Below, piece after piece: positions 9,565 through 22,903 of a DNA stretch of 26,228 nt. The notes below the pieces were generated by a model, which ran no database searches, was not told the DNA's origin, and was given only the letters and a program-made list of their open reading frames with translations. This DNA comes from a virus. The translations under genes were made by a program, and so were the position numbers. Position 1 is the stretch's first letter; the number at the start of each line of letters is the position of its first letter. Location: IMG/VR virus record IMGVR_UViG_3300028394_000280, positions 1-26,228 of that record; one strand, written 5' to 3'.

Positions 9565-9966
9565 ATGAAGACATTTAAGCAATTTATGGTGGAGGCAACA
9601 CCATTTGCGCTAATGGGTCCCACGAGTGCTTATGGTCCAGGATTGTATGGAAATAAAACTGCAAGTGGTCAAGTTTTAACTCCAAATACTATAGGAATTG
9701 CTCATAAAACACTTCCATTGGGAAGTAATGTTAGACTAACAGATCCCGGAACTAAAAAAAGCATACAAGTACCAGTAATTGATAGAGGTCCTTATGTTGG
9801 TGATCGGCAAGCGGATGTGACAGATGCTACTGTCAAAAAAATGGGATATAGTGGATGGAAAGATTATGGAGTTCGTAATATAGATGTGACTCCAGTAGTG
9901 GCAAAACCTAAACCAGAACCACTAAAGGTAACTAAAAGTAAAGGTTTGATGTCAGGAAAATATTAA
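9565..9966 (+). CDS. RlpA-like double-psi beta-barrel protein with capsid-targeting-like N-terminus
   Basis: This protein has 133 residues. Residues about 30-105 match the RlpA-type double-psi beta-barrel: ASG at 33-35, AHKTLPLG with His47, and VIDRGPY with Asp73, the usual active-site pair of RlpA lytic transglycosylases. The first eleven residues, MKTFKQFMVEA, resemble the start of T4 internal proteins (MKTYQEFIAEA), which directs them into the prohead and is cut by gp21 after the Glu. No signal peptide is present. An in-frame ATG at 9517 lies inside the terminator and is unlikely to be used. I infer a peptidoglycan-acting protein packed in the head or built into the virion. A structural barrel without enzyme activity is also possible. 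Confidence 0.8.
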   Translation: MKTFKQFMVEATPFALMGPTSAYGPGLYGNKTASGQVLTPNTIGIAHKTLPLGSNVRLTDPGTKKSIQVPVIDRGPYVGDRQADVTDATVKKMGYSGWKDYGVRNIDVTPVVAKPKPEPLKVTKSKGLMSGKY

Positions 9967-10999: not shown

Positions 11000-11020
11000 C
11001 TTTGGGATGGAGATATGTTT

Positions 11021-11674
11021 ATGGCATTCATATACAAAATAACCAACAATATAAACGGAAAATTTTATATTGGATTTACTAGTCAAAAAAATCCAAAATT
11101 AAGATTTAATCAACATTTATCATCTGCTCGTAGTAAAAAATCAAACAATCAACCAATTATTAGAGCAATTAAAAAATATGGAGAAGATAATTTTTCATTT
11201 GAGATTTTATTGGAGGGAGATGAAGATTTTCTGTTGAAAAAAGAAGAACCAAGATTAATAGAAGAACTAAAACCAGAATATAATGGAACTTTTGGTGGAG
11301 AAGGAGTATTGGGATATAAACATACACAACAATCAAAGGATATATGCCGTCTCTCAACATTAGGTAAGAAAGAATGTGAGTTTCATAAAGAATGGAGAGC
11401 AAAAAAAATAAAAGATGGATGGGACAATCAATCCAATGAAAAGAAAATAGAAATAGCATCAAATACATTAAATTGCAATACACAAAGAATTGAAATAGAA
11501 GTTGAAGGTATAAAGTTTAAAAGTATTAATGAAGCAGCACGATGGGCAGTAGATAAATACTCTATAGGAAGGAACACCGCAATAAGATATATTAAAGAAG
11601 GTCGTTCATTTTCCAATAAAAAACAATTGAACTATAGTTATAATGGAACCTACAAAGCATCAAAATACCTCTAA
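11021..11674 (+). CDS. GIY-YIG homing endonuclease
   Basis: This is a probable selfish endonuclease of 217 residues. The GIY-YIG domain covers residues 1-100: FIYKITNNINGKFYIGFTS with the YIG at 16-18, the expected catalytic Arg28 in LRFNQH, a Glu-rich segment KKEEPRLIEELKPEYNG that should hold the catalytic Glu, and GGEGV. A GYKHTQQSKDICRLSTLGK segment resembles a NUMOD3 DNA-binding motif. Near residues 165-200, FKSINEAARWAVDKYSIGRNTAIRYIKEG looks like a NUMOD1/helix-turn-helix module. I chose ATG 11021 because GGAG at 11009-11012 is 8 bases away, while the ATG at 11015 is only two. The gene is especially A-rich and its 3' end overlaps uvsW by 32 bases, as expected of an insertion. Confidence 0.88.
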   Translation: MAFIYKITNNINGKFYIGFTSQKNPKLRFNQHLSSARSKKSNNQPIIRAIKKYGEDNFSFEILLEGDEDFLLKKEEPRLIEELKPEYNGTFGGEGVLGYKHTQQSKDICRLSTLGKKECEFHKEWRAKKIKDGWDNQSNEKKIEIASNTLNCNTQRIEIEVEGIKFKSINEAARWAVDKYSIGRNTAIRYIKEGRSFSNKKQLNYSYNGTYKASKYL

Positions 11675-15480: not shown

Positions 15481-17182
15481 AAAAATTAAATGGAAGAACT
15501 TTTTAAGTACAGGTAATAACTGGACTGAAATGGACTTTCAAAAGAATCAAACCAACCTTATAGTTGGTACGAATGGTGCTGGAAAGTCCACTGTTCTGGA
15601 TGCACTGACTTTTGTATTGTTTAATCGCCCATTTCGTAAAATTAATAAACCTCAACTTGTTAACAGTACCAATGAAAAGGACTGTTTGGTAGAGATTGAG
15701 TTTACTGTGAATAGTAGGAATTATTTGGTTCGTCGTGGAATCAAACCGAATATTTTTGATATTGAAGTGAATGCAAAGCAACTTCATAAGGAAGCAGATG
15801 ATCGCATTAATCAAAAAATTTTGGAAGAGACTATTCTAAAGGTAAATTATAAATCATTTACTCAAATTGTAATTCTAGGATCAAGTACTTTTGTACCATT
15901 TATGCAACTTACAACATCAAATCGTCGTGAGGTGATTGAAGATTTGTTGGATATTCGTATTTTTTCTTCGATGAATAATATAATTAAAGAAAAAATACGT
16001 CAGAAAAAGGAGCAAATTAAATCTCTGGATTATAAAAAAGAATCTCTTAAGGATAAGGTTCAGATGCAAAAGAACTTTATTGATCAATTAGAAAGTCGTG
16101 GTAAAGATAATATTAAGAATCATAACTCAAAGATTTCTGAACTTCTTAAGGAGAATGATTCTTATATGATTCAAAATTCAATGACTGAAGAAAGTATTTT
16201 TTCATATATTAAAGAGCAGGAAGAAGTTTCTGGTGCAACTGATAAACTGAGAAAGTTGGGAAATTTGAAAGGTAAATTATCTCAGAAAGTATCTACCATT
16301 ACCAATGAGCACAAGTTCTTTACTGAAAATACGGTTTGTCCCACCTGCACTCAAACAATCGAGGAAGAGTTTCGGTTAAATAGAATTACCGACGCTCAAA
16401 ATAGTGCCAAGGAACTCCAACAAGGTTATAAAGATCTTGAAGAGACCATAAAGCAAGAAGAAGAGAGAGAGCGTCAATTTATTGCTCTATCTAAGGAGAT
16501 TACGAAACTCAACAATGACATTTCTCAAAACAATGCTAGGATTTCATCTAACCAACGACAGGTTAGGGATTTGGAAAGTGAAATTCAAACACTTACCGAA
16601 CAACTTGAAAACAAGAATACTGAGCATGGAAAGTTAGAAGAGTTTCAGACCAATCTCCAAAAAGTATTTGAGGATTTGGGCACTAAAAAGGAAGAGATCG
16701 TTCATTATGATTTTGCATATTCTCTTCTTAAAGATGATGGTGTAAAAACCAAAATTATCAAAAAATATCTTCCCTTCATCAATCAACAGGTGAATCGATA
16801 TTTGCAGATGATGGATTTCTACATTAATTTCCATTTGGATGAAGAGTTTAATGAATCCATTCAATCTCCAATTCATGAGAACTTCTCTTATAGTTCTTTT
16901 AGTGAAGGTGAGAAGATGCGAGTGGATTTGAGTCTATTGTTTACCTGGAGAGAAGTTGCCCGACTTAAAAATTCTGTGAATACAAATCTTTTAATTTTAG
17001 ATGAAGTTTTTGACTCTTCTCTCGATGGATTTGGAACTGATGAATTTCTTAAGATTATTCGTTATGTCATAAAGGATGCTAATATATTTGTGATTTCTCA
17101 TAAGACTGGACTTGAGGACAAATTTGAAAGTGTCACAAGGTTTGATAAGAAGGCAGGATTCTCATATAAAATAGAATCATAA
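15467..17182 (+). CDS. gp46: Recombination endonuclease ATPase subunit gp46
   Basis: This is the SMC-like ATPase partner of gp47 (Rad50/SbcC type). It is 571 residues (T4 gp46 is 560). Walker A is GTNGAGKS at 34-41. Two long coiled-coil arms flank a zinc hook CPTC at 291-294. The ABC signature SFSEGEK lies around Ser479, and Walker B LLILDEVFD has Asp512-Glu513, followed by VISHK. The family-typical order is complete. It overlaps the DUF3110 gene by 14 bases, so gp55, gp47, DUF3110 and gp46 form one overlapping operon. Confidence 0.95.
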   Translation: MITFKKIKWKNFLSTGNNWTEMDFQKNQTNLIVGTNGAGKSTVLDALTFVLFNRPFRKINKPQLVNSTNEKDCLVEIEFTVNSRNYLVRRGIKPNIFDIEVNAKQLHKEADDRINQKILEETILKVNYKSFTQIVILGSSTFVPFMQLTTSNRREVIEDLLDIRIFSSMNNIIKEKIRQKKEQIKSLDYKKESLKDKVQMQKNFIDQLESRGKDNIKNHNSKISELLKENDSYMIQNSMTEESIFSYIKEQEEVSGATDKLRKLGNLKGKLSQKVSTITNEHKFFTENTVCPTCTQTIEEEFRLNRITDAQNSAKELQQGYKDLEETIKQEEERERQFIALSKEITKLNNDISQNNARISSNQRQVRDLESEIQTLTEQLENKNTEHGKLEEFQTNLQKVFEDLGTKKEEIVHYDFAYSLLKDDGVKTKIIKKYLPFINQQVNRYLQMMDFYINFHLDEEFNESIQSPIHENFSYSSFSEGEKMRVDLSLLFTWREVARLKNSVNTNLLILDEVFDSSLDGFGTDEFLKIIRYVIKDANIFVISHKTGLEDKFESVTRFDKKAGFSYKIES

Positions 17183-17194
17183 CCAAACAGAACA

Positions 17195-17332
17195 ATGCAA
17201 GTCCCCAATCGCTACCATCACTCTAAGAAGGATCAGAAGCGGAAACTCAAACCGCAGGCCCTCCGACAAGCAAAGGCCCGCCGCCAAGCACTCAAGAAGC
17301 GTCTCACTCAACGAGACGCTTCTTTTTTATAA
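17195..17332 (+). CDS. Tiny very basic ORF, function unknown (45 aa)
   Basis: This is a 45-residue ORF starting MQVPNRYHHSKKDQ, with 15 Lys or Arg and only two Asp and no Glu. It is clearly richer in G+C than its neighbours, with many codons ending in C or G, like gp23. The last twelve codons are encoded by the following terminator stem, and its stop codon lies within the late promoter octamer. No ribosome site is obvious. The biased composition and fully open frame support a real gene, perhaps nucleic-acid binding, but length alone cannot prove it. Confidence 0.5.
   Translation: MQVPNRYHHSKKDQKRKLKPQALRQAKARRQALKKRLTQRDASFL
17294..17328 (+). terminator. Strong Rho-independent terminator after gp46 and the tiny basic ORF
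   Basis: A perfect ten base-pair stem (GAAGCGTCTC with GAGACGCTTC), extended by A-T pairs, has a seven-base loop and a run of six T. It overlaps the end of the 45-residue ORF, and its last T is the first base of a late promoter. Confidence 0.92.
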
Positions 17333-17335
17333 ATA
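17328..17335 (+). promoter_or_regulatory. T4-type late promoter TATAAATA before the first modular protein
   Basis: An exact TATAAATA shares its first T with the terminator run and lies 20 bases before the ATG at 17356. Confidence 0.8.
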
Positions 17336-17355
17336 CTTAAAAAGTTTTTATACCC

Positions 17356-18015
17356 ATGGCACAAGAAGAAGGAAGAGGGGCAAGAAAAAGATATAAAAAT
17401 GCACCATCTTATGATGAAGTAAAGGCAAAAATTGATGCTAAAGAGAAGGCAGCGGCAGAAAGAAAAGCAGCAAGATCTGCCGCAAAAAAACCTTTAACTC
17501 CCGCAGAAAGATATGAGCAAGAAAAGGCAGCGAGAAAGGATAAGTCTGGTGGTTTTTCGCAACATAGAATGACTGGAAGTGGGGGTCATGGATCAGAATA
17601 TCAAAACACTCGTTCAATTCGTGAAGAAGTTCTATCATATCTTCTTGATGAAGGTTTTGCATCTGATGAGAAATCTGCAGAGGCAATCATGGGCGCTATG
17701 AGTGAAGGTTGGATGGAGAGTATTGTTGAAGCAAGAGTAGATGATAATCTTTCTAATAAAGAAAAAAGTAACGTTAGGAATACAAGAAGTGGGATTCCTT
17801 TAAGTGATACATTTACAAGAACCGCTTTACATAAAAAACGTAGGGGAAAACCGCCAGTAAAACCTGAATCGGTAAAACCTACCAAAGACACTCAGGCGGA
17901 TGCTAAGTATAGAATGGCAGTAAATCAACCAGAACATCCTGCTGGTAAGAGAGTTCGTGCAAATTGGACACAAGATACTGCTGAAAGAGGCCCTTCAGGT
18001 AATCGTGGATCATAA
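17356..18015 (+). CDS. Modular late protein A, candidate internal or virion protein (219 aa)
   Basis: Function is unknown. It has three visible parts: a basic, Ala/Lys-rich coiled-coil-like N-terminus with SYDEVKAKIDAKEKAA at 18-33; a short module IREEVLSYLLDEGFASDEKSAEAIMGAMSEGWMESIVEA (88-126, quoted in pieces: EVLSYLLDEGFAS, AEAIMGAMSEGWMES); and a disordered C-terminus rich in Lys, Pro, Gly and Arg. The first two parts recur in the protein at 20289-21635, so the two are paralogues. IVE at 123-125, followed by Ala, fits the gp21 cleavage rule. The late promoter suggests a role in virion assembly. An internal head protein is my inference. Confidence 0.8.
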   Translation: MAQEEGRGARKRYKNAPSYDEVKAKIDAKEKAAAERKAARSAAKKPLTPAERYEQEKAARKDKSGGFSQHRMTGSGGHGSEYQNTRSIREEVLSYLLDEGFASDEKSAEAIMGAMSEGWMESIVEARVDDNLSNKEKSNVRNTRSGIPLSDTFTRTALHKKRRGKPPVKPESVKPTKDTQADAKYRMAVNQPEHPAGKRVRANWTQDTAERGPSGNRGS

Positions 18016-18037
18016 AACCACTTTCCAAACTGGCACA
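18015..18037 (+). repeat. Shared 23-bp box, copy 1 (before the CobT-like gene)
   Basis: AAACCACTTTCCAAACTG, then G, then CACA. It matches the copy at 21644-21666 at 22 of 23 bases. It starts at the stop codon of the modular protein gene and 52 bases before the -10 hexamer. Confidence 0.85.
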
Positions 18038-18040
18038 CTG

Positions 18041-18065
18041 GGGGGTCGCAAGACCTCCTTTTTTT
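18041..18065 (+). terminator. Rho-independent terminator before the CobT-like gene
   Basis: The stem GGGGGTC pairs with GACCTCC (one G-T pair), has a GCAA tetraloop and is followed by seven T. It directly abuts the -10 box of the next promoter. Confidence 0.85.
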
Positions 18066-18066
18066 G

Positions 18067-18072
18067 TATAAT
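18067..18072 (+). promoter_or_regulatory. Host-type -10 box TATAAT before the CobT-like gene
   Basis: TATAAT lies two bases after the terminator T run and 22 bases before the CobT-like ATG. No good -35 hexamer is seen at the usual distance, so an activator binding the 23-bp box upstream may be needed. Confidence 0.6.
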
Positions 18073-18094
18073 ACGGTCAGTTCAAAAAACACCA

Positions 18095-20254
18095 ATGCCA
18101 GTCAATCACGAAATCAAGTCCCAACTCGCCAAACTGCTTGCCACCGAAGACCTTGTGGTTGAGCACAAGAAAGTGGAGACTGCTCAGTTCAATGTACATA
18201 CTCGTGTGCTGACTCTGCCGATGTGGGAGAAAGCGAGCAACACTGTGTATGACCTTCTGGTTGGTCATGAAGTCGGACATGCTCTTTATACTCCTGATGA
18301 GGATTGGACTGAGCAAGTCAAAGTTCCTCCTCAGTTTGTGAATATCGTAGAAGATGCTCGCATCGAAAAACTAATGAAGCGTCGTTATGCTGGTCTTGCC
18401 AAGACTTTCTTCAATGGATACAAAGAACTTGTCGAACAAGACTTCTTTCAAATTGAAGATGAGCAAGTTGATGAGATGAATCTTGCCGACCGTGCCAATC
18501 TTTACTTTAAGATTGGTAACTTTGCCGATATCTTTATTGAACCTGGTGAAGAGACTAAAATTATCAATTTAATTGCCGACGCTGAAACTTTTACTGATGT
18601 TCTGATCGCTTCTGAGGAACTCTATGAGTACTGTAAGCAAAGGAAGCAAGAAGAAACTAAAATCAATCTGGATTCTCATGAAATTCCACAGTCTGGTGGA
18701 AATTCCCCTGCTTCCGATTTCTCAGATCAACCGGAAGGTGAGAATAATCAACCTGAAATGGAAGGTGGTGATGGTAGGAGTTCTGGTGAAATTGGTGAAC
18801 AGAAATCTCAGGAACAAAAACAAGAAGTTAGAGGTAAGCAAGGTGGTGAAACATCTGAACCTGAAGTCAAGACTGTTGGTAATCTTGAAGAAGCACTCAA
18901 AGATCTTGTGAATCGGGATGGTTGGGAAAATGTTTATTTGGAGATTCCCAAATTGAATGTGAATCAAATCATTGTAAATAATGCTGAGATTCACAATCAG
19001 TGCAAGCAATCTTGGGCATCATATCTTGATCATACTGAATATTCTCATGAAGAAATTTTTGGTGAGGTAGATAAAGATTTTCGTGAGTTTAAGCGTTCGG
19101 CACAGAAGGAAGTTAATTATCTGGTAAAAGAGTTTGAGTGTCGTAAGGCAGCAGATTCTTATGCTCGTGCCACAACCGCTCGTACAGGTGTTCTGGACTG
19201 TACCAAACTTCATACCTACAAATATAATGAAGACTTGTTCCGTAAGGTCACAACACTTGCAAACGGTAAGAATCATGGTCTGGTGTTCGTTCTTGACTGG
19301 TCCGGATCAATGAGTCGTGTGATGTTGGACACCGTAAAACAACTTTTTAATTTGATTTGGTTCTGTAAGAAAGTCAATATTCCTTTTGAGGTTTATTCTT
19401 TCACAAATGATTATCCAATTGTTAAGTATGATGAGAATCATAAACCCATTATGCCTCAACCTTTGTATCAGAAAAAGGATGGTGTAATTCAAGTTATAGA
19501 ATACTTCTCTTTGATGAATATGCTTACCAGTAAGACAAATGGTAAGACTCTGGAAGATCAGATGTTGAATATATATCGGATTGCCCGTAGTTTTAGTGAT
19601 CAATATTATTGTCGTTATAGTGTTCCAGTTGGTTGGAATCTTTCAGGAACTCCTTTAAATGAAGCTTTAATTTCTCTTCATGAAATTCTTCCCGCCTTTC
19701 AAAAAGAAAATAAATTGCAGAAAGTTCAGTGTGTAATTCTGACAGATGGTGAGGCAAATACTCCTAAGTATCATAAAGAGTTTAGTCGTCGTCATTTAGA
19801 AGAACCTTATCTTGGTGTAAATTCGATTAGCAGTAATGCATTTCTTCGTGACCGTAAAACTGGAAATACTTATTCTTTGAATGTAGAATGGCATGGTTTT
19901 AGTGATATTCTTCTTCAAAATCTTCGGGATAAGTTTCCTACAGTCAATTTTATTGGTATGAGGATTCTGGAATCTCGTGATACTTCACAGTTTATTCGCA
20001 GATATACTGGATATATTGGTACAGAATATGATAGAATTTTTTCTTCTTGGAAGAAAGAAAAGTCCTTTACTATTAAAAACTCTGGATATCATACATATTT
20101 TGGAATTTCTGCTTCTGCTCTTGCAAATGATGTGGAGTTTGAGGTTGCCGAAGATGCAACTAAGACTCAAATTAAATCTGCATTCATAAAGAGTTTGAAG
20201 AGTAAGAAAATGAACAAGAAAGTTCTTGGGGAATTTATAGAACTGGTTGCATAA
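18095..20254 (+). CDS. cobT: CobT-like protein with zinc-protease motif and VWA domain
   Basis: This protein has 719 residues. The N-terminal part has HEVGH at 58-62 (LLVGHEVGHALY) and VEDARIEKLM near 90-99, a zincin-like metal site. Residues about 190-265 are a Gln/Glu/Gly-rich linker. The C-terminal von Willebrand A domain has the MIDAS motif DWSGS at 401-405, a Thr in LSGTPLNEAL and Asp in ILTDGEANTP. This layout resembles the cobaltochelatase subunit CobT and related VWA partners of MoxR/CobS ATPases. A CobS-like ATPase gene lies 1.5 kb downstream. ATG 18095 follows the -10 box by 22 bases; a longer frame from 17957 overlaps the previous gene and is unlikely. Whether it acts on cobalamin or as a protein-remodelling partner is unknown. 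Confidence 0.85.
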   Translation: MPVNHEIKSQLAKLLATEDLVVEHKKVETAQFNVHTRVLTLPMWEKASNTVYDLLVGHEVGHALYTPDEDWTEQVKVPPQFVNIVEDARIEKLMKRRYAGLAKTFFNGYKELVEQDFFQIEDEQVDEMNLADRANLYFKIGNFADIFIEPGEETKIINLIADAETFTDVLIASEELYEYCKQRKQEETKINLDSHEIPQSGGNSPASDFSDQPEGENNQPEMEGGDGRSSGEIGEQKSQEQKQEVRGKQGGETSEPEVKTVGNLEEALKDLVNRDGWENVYLEIPKLNVNQIIVNNAEIHNQCKQSWASYLDHTEYSHEEIFGEVDKDFREFKRSAQKEVNYLVKEFECRKAADSYARATTARTGVLDCTKLHTYKYNEDLFRKVTTLANGKNHGLVFVLDWSGSMSRVMLDTVKQLFNLIWFCKKVNIPFEVYSFTNDYPIVKYDENHKPIMPQPLYQKKDGVIQVIEYFSLMNMLTSKTNGKTLEDQMLNIYRIARSFSDQYYCRYSVPVGWNLSGTPLNEALISLHEILPAFQKENKLQKVQCVILTDGEANTPKYHKEFSRRHLEEPYLGVNSISSNAFLRDRKTGNTYSLNVEWHGFSDILLQNLRDKFPTVNFIGMRILESRDTSQFIRRYTGYIGTEYDRIFSSWKKEKSFTIKNSGYHTYFGISASALANDVEFEVAEDATKTQIKSAFIKSLKSKKMNKKVLGEFIELVA

Positions 20255-20256
20255 TT

Positions 20257-20264
20257 TATAAATA
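20257..20264 (+). promoter_or_regulatory. T4-type late promoter TATAAATA before the second modular protein
   Basis: An exact TATAAATA begins two bases after the CobT-like stop codon and lies 24 bases before the ATG at 20289. Confidence 0.8.
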
Positions 20265-20288
20265 AGTCTAGGAAAGTATACTGGACTT

Positions 20289-21635
20289 ATGAATACCGAA
20301 CAAATTAAAGACATGCAACTGCTTTATAGTGCAGTTTATAATGAAGAACTTAGAGAGCAGTTTGAGGAATATAACAATACCATCTATGATGAGGATATTG
20401 TAGAAGTTGCCACCGAATACTTCTATTCATATGGACTCAATGAAGATGGTATTGGTATTCTGATTGAAAAGGTTGGTCTTGAGTCTTTTGTTGAGTATGT
20501 TTATGAGTTGTCGGAAGATCTTCATGTTCTTACTGAAGAAAGAAGGGCAAGAAAAAGAACTGGTGGGGATTCTTATGCTGAAGTAAAGGCAAAGATTGAT
20601 GCCAAAGAAGAGGCAAAGAAAAAGGCGAAAGAAGCAGCGACTGAGAAAAATGAAACAGAAAGAAAAGAACCAGAATCACGTGGCGTAGAAAGTCAGGCAA
20701 AGGCGGAGCAACCAAAATCAAAAAAACCAGAGAGGAGTGGAATTGCAAGAGCAATCTCTGGTGCAGTAGATAGAGCAAAACGCGATACTGAACTTCTTAA
20801 AAAATCATGGAATACTGCAAGAGAAGTTGGTAGGGGACATGAAGCAAATGTAGCAAGGGCAGCGGGAACTGTAGCAGGCGCTGCTCATGGTGCTGCGAAA
20901 GTTGCACATCGCTTAGGACAAGAAGCGGGTAAGAGTGAAACTGGTAAGAAAATTAAAAAGGTATTATTTGGTGAAGAAGTTGAAGCATGGGTAAATCAAC
21001 TTGTAGAAGAAGGTTATGACCTGAGTGAGTATACTTGGGATGATATGGTAGAGATTTATAATGAGCAATTTACGTTAGGGAAGAAAAAAACTAAGGAGGA
21101 ACTGGCAAGATATGTAGCGGCTCTTCAAACACTACGAGGTAATAATGAAGAACCTACAACTCGATCCCAATCATCAGGAGAACCAACAAGAAGAAGGCGA
21201 ACTACTAACTTGAAAGATGTTGAGGTTAGGGAAGACATCTATGACACTATCCTCTCACACCTGATTGATGAAGGTTATGCTGAGTCTGTAGAGCAGGCAG
21301 AAGTCATTATGGTGAATATGAGTGAAAATTGGAGAGAAAGCATTTGTGAAGGTCCCGTTGGTGAGTTTGCTGATAAAGTGGCAAGCACTGCAGGGTCAGC
21401 AGTTGGAACTGTTCAACGTGCTGTTAGGGAAGTTCCAAAATATGTGGATCAAAAAATAAAAAATGTTGCCGGAACTTATGAATATGCACGTCAAAGAGCA
21501 GATGCAAACGCTCCTTCTGGAGCTCCTTCTGGAGCAATGAAGACTACACCAAGAAGCAGAGAGTTTTCTCACGGTAATCAAGGTGGGAAACCGGGATCTA
21601 TGAAAAATCCTGGTCCAAACTTTGGTCGTGGATAA
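20289..21635 (+). CDS. Modular late protein B, candidate internal or virion protein (448 aa)
   Basis: Function is unknown. Residues 1-83 form an acidic helical domain (FEEYNNTIYDEDIVEVATEY, then IGILIEKVGLESFVEYVYEL) ending in LTE. Residues 84-115, ERRARKR and SYAEVKAKIDAKEEA, repeat the start of the modular protein at 17356-18015. A long Ala/Lys/Glu-rich segment follows, then EAWVNQLVEEGYDLSEYTWDD near 235-255. Near 315-350 lies YDTILSHLIDEGYAESVEQ, then MSENWRESICE, which repeats the paralogue's second module. The tail is Gly/Ser/Pro-rich. LTE at 81-83 and ICE near 350 fit the gp21 cleavage rule. The late promoter fits a virion role. It lies between the CobT-like and CobS-like genes. Confidence 0.82.
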   Translation: MNTEQIKDMQLLYSAVYNEELREQFEEYNNTIYDEDIVEVATEYFYSYGLNEDGIGILIEKVGLESFVEYVYELSEDLHVLTEERRARKRTGGDSYAEVKAKIDAKEEAKKKAKEAATEKNETERKEPESRGVESQAKAEQPKSKKPERSGIARAISGAVDRAKRDTELLKKSWNTAREVGRGHEANVARAAGTVAGAAHGAAKVAHRLGQEAGKSETGKKIKKVLFGEEVEAWVNQLVEEGYDLSEYTWDDMVEIYNEQFTLGKKKTKEELARYVAALQTLRGNNEEPTTRSQSSGEPTRRRRTTNLKDVEVREDIYDTILSHLIDEGYAESVEQAEVIMVNMSENWRESICEGPVGEFADKVASTAGSAVGTVQRAVREVPKYVDQKIKNVAGTYEYARQRADANAPSGAPSGAMKTTPRSREFSHGNQGGKPGSMKNPGPNFGRG

Positions 21636-21643
21636 TATTTTCT

Positions 21644-21666
21644 AAACCACTTTCCAAACTGTCACA
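21644..21666 (+). repeat. Shared 23-bp box, copy 2 (before the CobS-like gene)
   Basis: AAACCACTTTCCAAACTG, then T, then CACA. It differs from copy 1 by one base and starts 53 bases before the -10 hexamer, against 52 for copy 1. Confidence 0.85.
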
Positions 21667-21691
21667 GGGGGCCCCGACTTCCCCCTTTTTT
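21666..21691 (+). terminator. Rho-independent terminator before the CobS-like gene
   Basis: The stem AGGGGG pairs with CCCCCT, has a nine-base loop and a run of six T. The stem sequence is not the same as at the CobT-like gene, although the position is. Confidence 0.75.
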
Positions 21692-21693
21692 AA

Positions 21694-21702
21694 TGCTATA
21701 CT
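21694..21702 (+). promoter_or_regulatory. Host-type extended -10 promoter before the CobS-like gene
   Basis: TGC directly precedes TATACT, an extended -10 element, 34 bases before the CobS-like ATG. No clear -35 hexamer is seen. The 23-bp box lies just upstream of where the -35 would be. Confidence 0.6.
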
Positions 21703-21736
21703 ATGAGAGTTCAAGACAAAACCACCTAACTACATC

Positions 21737-22870
21737 ATGCCCCGCAAAACTTCTGTGACTGACGATCAACTGTTTGCTGACCTAAAAGAACTCTTCGGTT
21801 CCGAATTTAGTTCTGGCGATATTCGTGGATATTGCGCTTCTCGCAGTATTAATTATCAGACTGTTACACGTCGCCTAGAACCATTTAAGACTGATCGTGG
21901 TCGTTGGAATCTGGAAGTAACTCAAGAGAAGGTAGAGCAAATCGAACGCACATATCAAGCACCTTCTGCCCTTCCTGTTGTAGAACAAAATCTTATTCCT
22001 GATAAAGATGATACCTTCGTCAAGTTTGGTAATTTTAATGACATCAAGAAAATTATTTCTTCCAATCTCTTCTATCCTACGTTCATTACGGGTCTTTCGG
22101 GTAATGGCAAAACGTTTAGTGTGGAGCAAGCGTGTGCTCAACTTAAGCGTGAACTAATTCGTGTAAATATTACAATCGAAACTGATGAAGATGATCTTAT
22201 TGGGGGTTTCCGCCTTATTAACGGCGAAACTGTTTGGCACAACGGGCCCGTTATCGAAGCACTCCAACGAGGTGCTATATTGCTCCTTGACGAGATCGAC
22301 CTCGCAAGTAATAAAATTCTCTGTCTCCAATCCATCCTGGAAGGAAAGGGAGTTTTCCTTAAAAAGATTGGTGCATTCATTAAACCAACAAGTGGATTCA
22401 ACATCATTGCAACCGCCAATACTAAGGGCAAAGGTTCGGACGATGGTAGGTTCATTGGAACTAACGTGCTCAACGAAGCCTTCCTAGAACGCTTTCCCGT
22501 AACCTTTGAGCAGTCTTATCCTGCCCCTGCTACAGAGCAGAAGATCCTGGAAGGTGTTGCTTTGGATCTTGGTGTAGAAGACCGTGACTTCTGCAAGCGA
22601 CTGGTTGACTGGAGTGACGTTATTCGTAAGACTTTTTATGATGGTGGTATTGAAGAAATCATCTCCACCCGCCGTCTCGTTCACATCATTCGTGCTTATA
22701 GTATCTTTGCTGATAAGGCAAAGGCAATTCAAGTTTGTGTGAATCGCTTTGATGATGAAACAAAGCAAGCGTTCTTGGAACTGTATGATAAGGTTGATGC
22801 TGATTTCAAGATGCCTACTGTGGTATCAAATGAAGTTCTTCCAGATCTTGACGAACCTTGCCCTTTCTGA
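21737..22870 (+). CDS. cobS: CobS-like AAA+ ATPase
   Basis: This protein has 377 residues. The N-terminal 60 residues (DDQLFADLKELFGSEFSS, then TVTRRLEPFKTDRGRWNL) may bind a partner. The AAA+ core has Walker A GLSGNGKT at 119-126, Walker B ILLLDE at 181-186, sensor 1 ATANT at 225-229, Arg252 in LERFPVTFE as a candidate arginine finger, and STRRLVHII as a sensor 2 region. This is the MoxR/CobS branch. CobS is the ATPase of the aerobic cobaltochelatase, and cobS-like genes are common in T4-like cyanophages. Pairing with the CobT-like gene upstream suggests the two products work as one complex. The substrate is not known. Confidence 0.9.
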   Translation: MPRKTSVTDDQLFADLKELFGSEFSSGDIRGYCASRSINYQTVTRRLEPFKTDRGRWNLEVTQEKVEQIERTYQAPSALPVVEQNLIPDKDDTFVKFGNFNDIKKIISSNLFYPTFITGLSGNGKTFSVEQACAQLKRELIRVNITIETDEDDLIGGFRLINGETVWHNGPVIEALQRGAILLLDEIDLASNKILCLQSILEGKGVFLKKIGAFIKPTSGFNIIATANTKGKGSDDGRFIGTNVLNEAFLERFPVTFEQSYPAPATEQKILEGVALDLGVEDRDFCKRLVDWSDVIRKTFYDGGIEEIISTRRLVHIIRAYSIFADKAKAIQVCVNRFDDETKQAFLELYDKVDADFKMPTVVSNEVLPDLDEPCPF

Positions 22871-22876
22871 TATAAT
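22848..22876 (+). promoter_or_regulatory. Host-type promoter inside the 3' end of cobS
   Basis: TTGACG and TATAAT are 17 bases apart, with TGA before the -10 box. The -10 box overlaps the last cobS codons and abuts the hairpin. The start of transcription should fall around 22882-22884, within the left arm of the hairpin, so new transcripts would not form the full terminator. Confidence 0.75.
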
Positions 22877-22878
22877 AT

Positions 22879-22903
22879 GGGGAGGTAATGTTCCTCCCTT
22901 TTT
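22879..22903 (+). terminator. Rho-independent terminator after cobS
   Basis: The stem GGGAGG pairs with CCTCCC (plus a G-T pair), has a seven-base loop TAATGTT and five T. It overlaps the expected start site of the promoter at 22848-22876. Confidence 0.8.

Follow-up and report, generated by a model that had tools for sequence, protein, structure and literature searches.

A palindromic element at a fixed distance from a sigma70-type −10 precedes the cobT- and cobS-like genes, and many other genes, of T4-like cyanophages

A CobT-like gene and a CobS-like gene of a T4-like virus are each preceded by a late promoter, a modular gene, a conserved box, a hairpin terminator, and a −10 sequence, which raises the question of whether a single regulatory cassette has been copied and then retained because it couples the two genes or whether its parts have separate histories. 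The window, i.e., the whole stretch of DNA that was analysed, is a 26,228-base virus record (IMGVR_UViG_3300028394_000280) with T4-like gene order: gp17, gp18, gp19, gp20, gp21, gp22, gp23, UvsY, UvsW, gp55, gp47, gp46, cobT-like, cobS-like, gp45, and gp44, with some names assigned from order and homology. The closest isolate found was Synechococcus phage S-SRM01, from a freshwater reservoir, with 74% identity across 74% of the region. Elsewhere in the window, a GIY-YIG homing endonuclease gene, preceded by a hairpin terminator and a late promoter, lies between uvsY and uvsW (11015–11674), and positions 9565–9966 encode a small protein that contains a domain of the DPBB type (RlpA-like lytic transglycosylase). 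Its N-terminus, MKTFKQFMVEA, resembles the N-terminal sequence by which internal proteins of T4 are targeted to the capsid, and the protein is possibly packaged and injected.

An earlier note on this DNA described the same order of features in both blocks, and all of these features were located at both places, on the plus strand. The first block consists of the late promoter TATAAATA (17328–17335), the gene for modular protein A (219 amino acids, 17356–18015), the palindromic box of the cobT promoter (18014–18037, centred near −53.5), a terminator hairpin with a U-run (18040–18065, hairpin 18040–18059) within the spacer between box and −10, and the −10 TATAAT (18067–18072; class matrix score 37.9, spacing 30), which lacks a −35 hexamer. 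These are followed by the CobT-like gene (18095–20254). The second block contains TATAAATA (20257–20264), the gene for modular protein B (448 amino acids, 20289–21635), the box of the cobS promoter (21643–21666, centred near −54.5), a hairpin with a U-run and a weak fold, again within the spacer (21667–21691, hairpin 21667–21684), and the −10 TATACT (21697–21702; score 35.2, spacing 31), also without a −35 hexamer and extended by a preceding TGC; the CobS-like gene occupies 21737–22870. The late promoter is exact in both blocks, as had been claimed, and its sequence occurs six times in the window, every time on the plus strand, compared with once in the control. The modular proteins have two modules in common (77% over 66 nt and 71% over 55 nt), and the boxes match at 22 of 23 positions (AAACCACTTTCCAAACTG[G/T]CACA at 18015–18037 and 21644–21666), for which the chance expectation from shuffles was 0.00. 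The terminator stems are indeed unrelated to each other. A host-type −10 is present at both genes; the cobT copy is TATAAT, and the cobS copy departs from the exact consensus.

The box, 23 bp long, forms the greater part of an imperfect palindrome of 24 bp, TGTGMCASTT-N4-AACTGKCACA, the left arm of which begins one base 5′ of the box. When the box core, AACTG[GT]C[AC]C, was searched in 2.6 Mb of sequence from 13 T4-like cyanophage genomes, 252 occurrences were found, and 58 were followed by a −10 at 30–31 nt (38 at 30 nt and 20 at 31 nt), compared with approximately one per position elsewhere and flat profiles for the control patterns. Although these 58 sites were picked without selection for the left arm, they had on average 6.2 of 10 matches to the mirror sequence, TGTGCCAGTT, compared with 2.5 after shuffling, and the aligned class sites share an initiator near TCATA. 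Such a conserved site with a −10 downstream of it at fixed spacing is the arrangement of a sigma70-type promoter with an upstream activator site. The fixed spacing agrees with the idea, put forward in the earlier note, that position is under selection, and it suggests that the box is a part of the promoter, not of the terminator. The box was rejected as a −35 hexamer, lying 30 nt from the −10 and not 17, and as an RNA hairpin, with just three pairs in one copy and none in the other.

A position weight matrix derived from these sites gave 237 raw matches at a score of at least 18 in the 13 genomes and three in the reversed sequence; the counts are approximate in absolute terms, because these genomes also served to train the matrix. 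After merging, 194 promoters remained, with spacings of 30 nt in 89 and 31 nt in 73. The class definition partly uses the −10, but the spacing peak of the 58 sites comes from the box core only and is independent of the matrix. The merged set comprised 3–33 copies per genome, with a copy number of up to about 30–40 overall, and members are concentrated where small hypothetical genes lie, for example at 42–69 kb of P-SSM2 and 2–23 kb of S-PM2. A TTG at the −35 position was present in 59 of the 194 (about 30%), with a peak at 16–17 nt from the −10, indicating that the −10s of the class behave as sigma70-type promoters, and about 70% have no −35. Considering the regions of small hypothetical genes and the sigma70 type, the timing of the class is inferred to be early or early/middle. 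A class promoter also precedes a helicase-like gene at L019, L024, L037, L051, and about 42.3 kb of P-SSM2.

The window contains a third, weaker member of the class (17114–17172), with its box, GAGGACAAATTTGAAAGTGTCACA, in the 3′ end of gp46 (17114–17137, plus strand, score 22.6), the −10 TAAAAT at 17167–17172, and the initiator TCATA; on the reversed window, the matrix had no match at a score of at least 10. This promoter precedes a basic ORF of 45 amino acids (phrog_3309, 17195–17332, plus strand), the 3′ end of which is overlapped by a strong hairpin terminator (17294–17324, plus strand). At the end of cobS (22848–22899), a strong sigma70 promoter, TTGACG-17-TATAAT, has its start within the stem of the next terminator, so that this hairpin could be formed by read-through transcripts only.

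When cobT and cobS loci were sampled by protein rather than by box, a class promoter was found before 62 of 72 cobT genes and 47 of 73 cobS genes, compared with 0 of 145 reversed controls, and most of the 26 cobS negatives had a visible variant ending in CCACT at unchanged spacing. The earlier proposal of one control scheme for both cob genes is therefore borne out insofar as the element is usual at both, but the scheme is not private to the pair, because class promoters also precede dozens of other, mostly hypothetical, genes. In marine relatives, the distance between the core and the −10 of cobT and cobS is unchanged, with or without a hairpin or U-run, and the element has been kept despite the loss of the hairpin or U-run at P-SSM2 cobT, S-SSM7 cobT and cobS, and S-PM2 cobS.

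The exact box was found at 94 sites in 92 IMG/VR stretches, mostly before cobT or cobS (73 of 94). The notion of a cob-locus-specific box came from this exact-variant search and was dropped when the wider search found other genes. The strict full element occurred in at least 120 viral stretches, with 124 unique viral sites among the matches listed, and had no match in 84,980 prokaryote genomes, where so strict a pattern would miss a degenerate host site; a looser host pattern gave one match, in a Bacteroidales MAG, which is about the chance level. A host regulon borrowed by the phage was rejected on the lack of a strict element in these prokaryote genomes. The palindrome, its fixed spacing, its recurrence as a class, and the lack of a strict match in host genomes are all read directly from the genomes.

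The hairpins in the spacer of the window fold well at cobT (z −3.8) and weakly at cobS (z −0.4), and no family was matched in an Rfam scan. Among the 194 class promoters, 32 had a U-run in the spacer, and 48 had a perfect stem of at least 6, compared with about five in shuffles. At cobT, a spacer terminator was present at 15 of 23 loci with a late promoter on the upstream gene and at 10 of 40 loci without one (Fisher test, P = 0.003, uncorrected for shared ancestry), a pattern consistent with a terminator that shields an early-type gene from read-through of late transcripts; the same comparison at cobS comprised few cases (3 vs. 49). Some spacers contain long inverted repeats without a U-run (e.g., L308 and about 8.6 kb of S-PM2), for which decayed terminators or a second binding site are candidate readings.

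The modular "late" genes are optional, and many marine relatives have none. No modular ORF is annotated at the cob junctions of S-PM2, S-SM2, Bellamy, ACG-2014f, and S-SSM7, and at eight IMG/VR loci (six sites after dereplication) the order is directly cobT, box, cobS. In freshwater-type relatives, an ORF of the modular family, very variable in length, precedes 49 of 61 dereplicated exact-box sites, and a late promoter was present at 32 of the 44 exact-box sites where the 5′ end of the modular ORF was readable. No Pfam family matched modular protein A, and copies of the repeated module of these genes are present in further ORFs within the same genomes. In relatives, the 45-amino-acid ORF, the peptide motif of which was present in 107 of the loci examined, often adjoins cobT as its upstream neighbour, and the box can sit in the coding 3′ end of this ORF; the first modular gene therefore looks like an optional insertion between this ORF and cobT, and modular protein B is likewise a putative optional insertion between cobT and cobS. 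Homing-endonuclease-like genes have been inserted directly downstream of the box and terminator at L007, L010, L015, and L025; the insert at L010 matches phrog_314 and is followed by cobT, and the −10 is altered at L010 and L025.

As to the proteins themselves, an AAA+ protein stands beside a protein with a VWA MIDAS, which is the composition of a MoxR-type AAA+/VWA pair. The CobS-like ATPase (MoxR/CbbQ–NorQ type, phrog_249) matched the Pfam families AAA_5 (64.7 bits) and CbbQ_C (23.4 bits), both above the cut-off, as well as the structures of CobS and NorQ. It was rejected as the cobaltochelatase subunit CobS, with an NCBIfam TIGR01650 score of 66.9 bits against a cut-off of 558.55. In the CobT-like protein (phrog_459 "peptidase"), the Pfam VWA match was below its cut-off, and no solved relative was found by sequence, but the MIDAS residues (DWSGSM, T519, and D551) were invariant in ten CobT-like proteins. 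A zincin-type HEVGH motif (window 18266–18280, residues 58–62) was also invariant in these ten proteins, and it would be unusual for a zincin-type protease to be fused to the VWA protein that partners an AAA+ ATPase. The phage pair resembles the cobaltochelatase CobS/CobT, NorQ/NorD, and MoxR pairs in combining AAA+ with a VWA MIDAS, and differs from them in the invariant HEVGH and the CobS model score below its cut-off. The timing of cobS and cobT expression was not found in the literature text searched.

Several known systems resemble the class in part. The activator-dependent Ogr/Delta late promoters of P2 and P4 have a −10, no good −35, and a dyad near −55 (TGT-N12-ACA in P2). The class likewise has a −10 without a good −35 and a dyad centred near −55, but its dyad is TGTG-N16-CACA near −53.5, and its genes look early, whereas those of P2 are late. 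Ogr_Delta (PF04606) was absent from all 13 cyanophage records and was matched in an E. coli control; membership of the P2 Ogr/Delta regulon was rejected on the dyad spacing and the lack of a homologue. A CRP-like site was also rejected, because the half-sites of the CRP consensus are spaced more narrowly than those of the class palindrome. The Syn9 transcriptome study of Doron et al. 2016 reportedly describes a new element at early genes, together with middle promoters of a host-like kind. That element also lies before early genes of a T4-like cyanophage, and Syn9 carries variant class members; it may be the class element, which would then possibly have been seen already, and this limits how new the class element is. 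In the MotA middle promoters of T4, a sigma70 −10 is combined with a phage upstream box instead of a −35, and the MotA box is non-palindromic and lies near −30. The class shares a phage-specific upstream box in place of the −35, but its box is palindromic and farther upstream. Cyanomyoviruses are reported to lack motA and asiA (PMC2984593), and a MotA-type promoter is disfavoured by this and by the position of the box.

A likeness in layout exists to the PeSLs, cassettes of an early promoter and a stem–loop in T4-like phages (Arbiol 2010; Comeau 2014; both as cited in PMC4503421, according to which dense PeSLs were not found in the S-PM2 region studied). Here, too, a hairpin terminator is fused to a sigma70-type promoter between genes, at gain/loss junctions of T4-like phages, and a stem–loop with an early-type sigma70 promoter is present at both cobT and cobS of the window. 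In the class, however, conservation lies in a palindrome that precedes the hairpin and keeps a fixed distance from the −10, and most members have no terminator. No description of the motif was found in the literature searched, the scope of which did not extend to Doron 2016 and the original PeSL papers.

Our main reading, to which we assign a probability of about 0.7, is that the box is the upstream activator site of a sigma70-type promoter class and that the terminator in the spacer insulates the early-type cob genes. Protein binding, activation, termination at the hairpin, and early or early/middle timing are all predicted from sequence patterns here. A dimeric DNA-binding protein would most likely occupy the palindrome, the centre of which lies about 53.5 bp upstream of the start, and the bound activator dimer would contact the host RNA polymerase in place of the −35 that is missing from about 70% of members. 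In this phage, the hairpin terminator before each cob gene would fit into the spacer of constant length, about 30 bp, and transcripts of the upstream late gene would end there; transcripts from the −10 would start downstream of the hairpin and be unaffected by it.

The box might instead belong to the terminator, as RNA or as DNA, and help transcripts to end just before the next gene, and all 94 exact-box sites do have a hairpin and T-run directly after them. However, the exact variant is found mostly at cob loci, and in the wider class most spacers lack a U-run (162 of 194, and 98 of the 124 sites listed) while the −10 stays at 30–31 nt; other terminators in the window have no box, and Rfam gave no match. 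We rejected this role, which is very unlikely, on the spacing and U-run statistics. The dyad symmetry would also suit a dimeric repressor that closes the promoters later in infection, with the palindrome as its operator. Sites upstream of the −10/−35 region at fixed spacing are typical of activation at sigma70 promoters, and the centre at −53.5, outside the −10/−35 region, the fixed spacing, and the usual lack of a −35 make an operator unlikely.

The duplication of one cassette, from late promoter to host-type promoter, with its retention to couple the cob genes, was the reading of the earlier note. It has in its favour the similarity of the boxes and modules and the recurrence of the arrangement in freshwater relatives. 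It is nevertheless the least probable of the explanations weighed here, given that the box and −10 belong to a genome-wide class found at dozens of other genes, the hairpins are unrelated and optional, and the promoter element occurs at the cob genes of relatives without modular genes. That note had itself named relatives with a single cassette as evidence against duplication, and for the modular part such relatives exist: in S-PM2, cobS alone carries the element, and in S-SM2, cobT alone does, with no modular gene at either place. This pattern of presence and absence points to separate histories of the promoter and modular gene segments. The units might also be mobile recombination cassettes of the PeSL type, whose repeated promoter–terminator units would allow modules such as the modular genes to be exchanged. 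This idea is compatible with a promoter role, and the very different lengths of the modular genes and the homing endonucleases inserted at these junctions in relatives are in line with it, as is the module exchange reported for PeSLs of other T4-like phages (cited in PMC4503421). As the main reason for the conservation it is nonetheless rather doubtful, since the units lie upstream of cobT and cobS at orthologous positions across the family, which suggests that promoter function comes first.

The reading as an upstream activator site points to a candidate switch protein and not to a duplicated cassette. The T4-like cyanophages lack Alt, ModA/B, MotA, and AsiA, and how their early and middle transcription is run has been called unknown (PMC2984593). 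A defined element of 24 bp, fixed in position in approximately 194 promoters of 13 genomes and with no strict host match, offers a concrete bait for such a protein. The core gene pair cobT/cobS would be placed in an early-type regulon, apart from the neighbouring late genes. More tentatively, and with the odds somewhat against it, the palindrome may be read by an activator, encoded by the phage or delivered with the virion and unrelated to MotA and Ogr, that controls the early programme of T4-like cyanophages generally. If so, this activator would be the missing early/middle switch of these phages, with the AAA+/VWA pair among the genes under its control.
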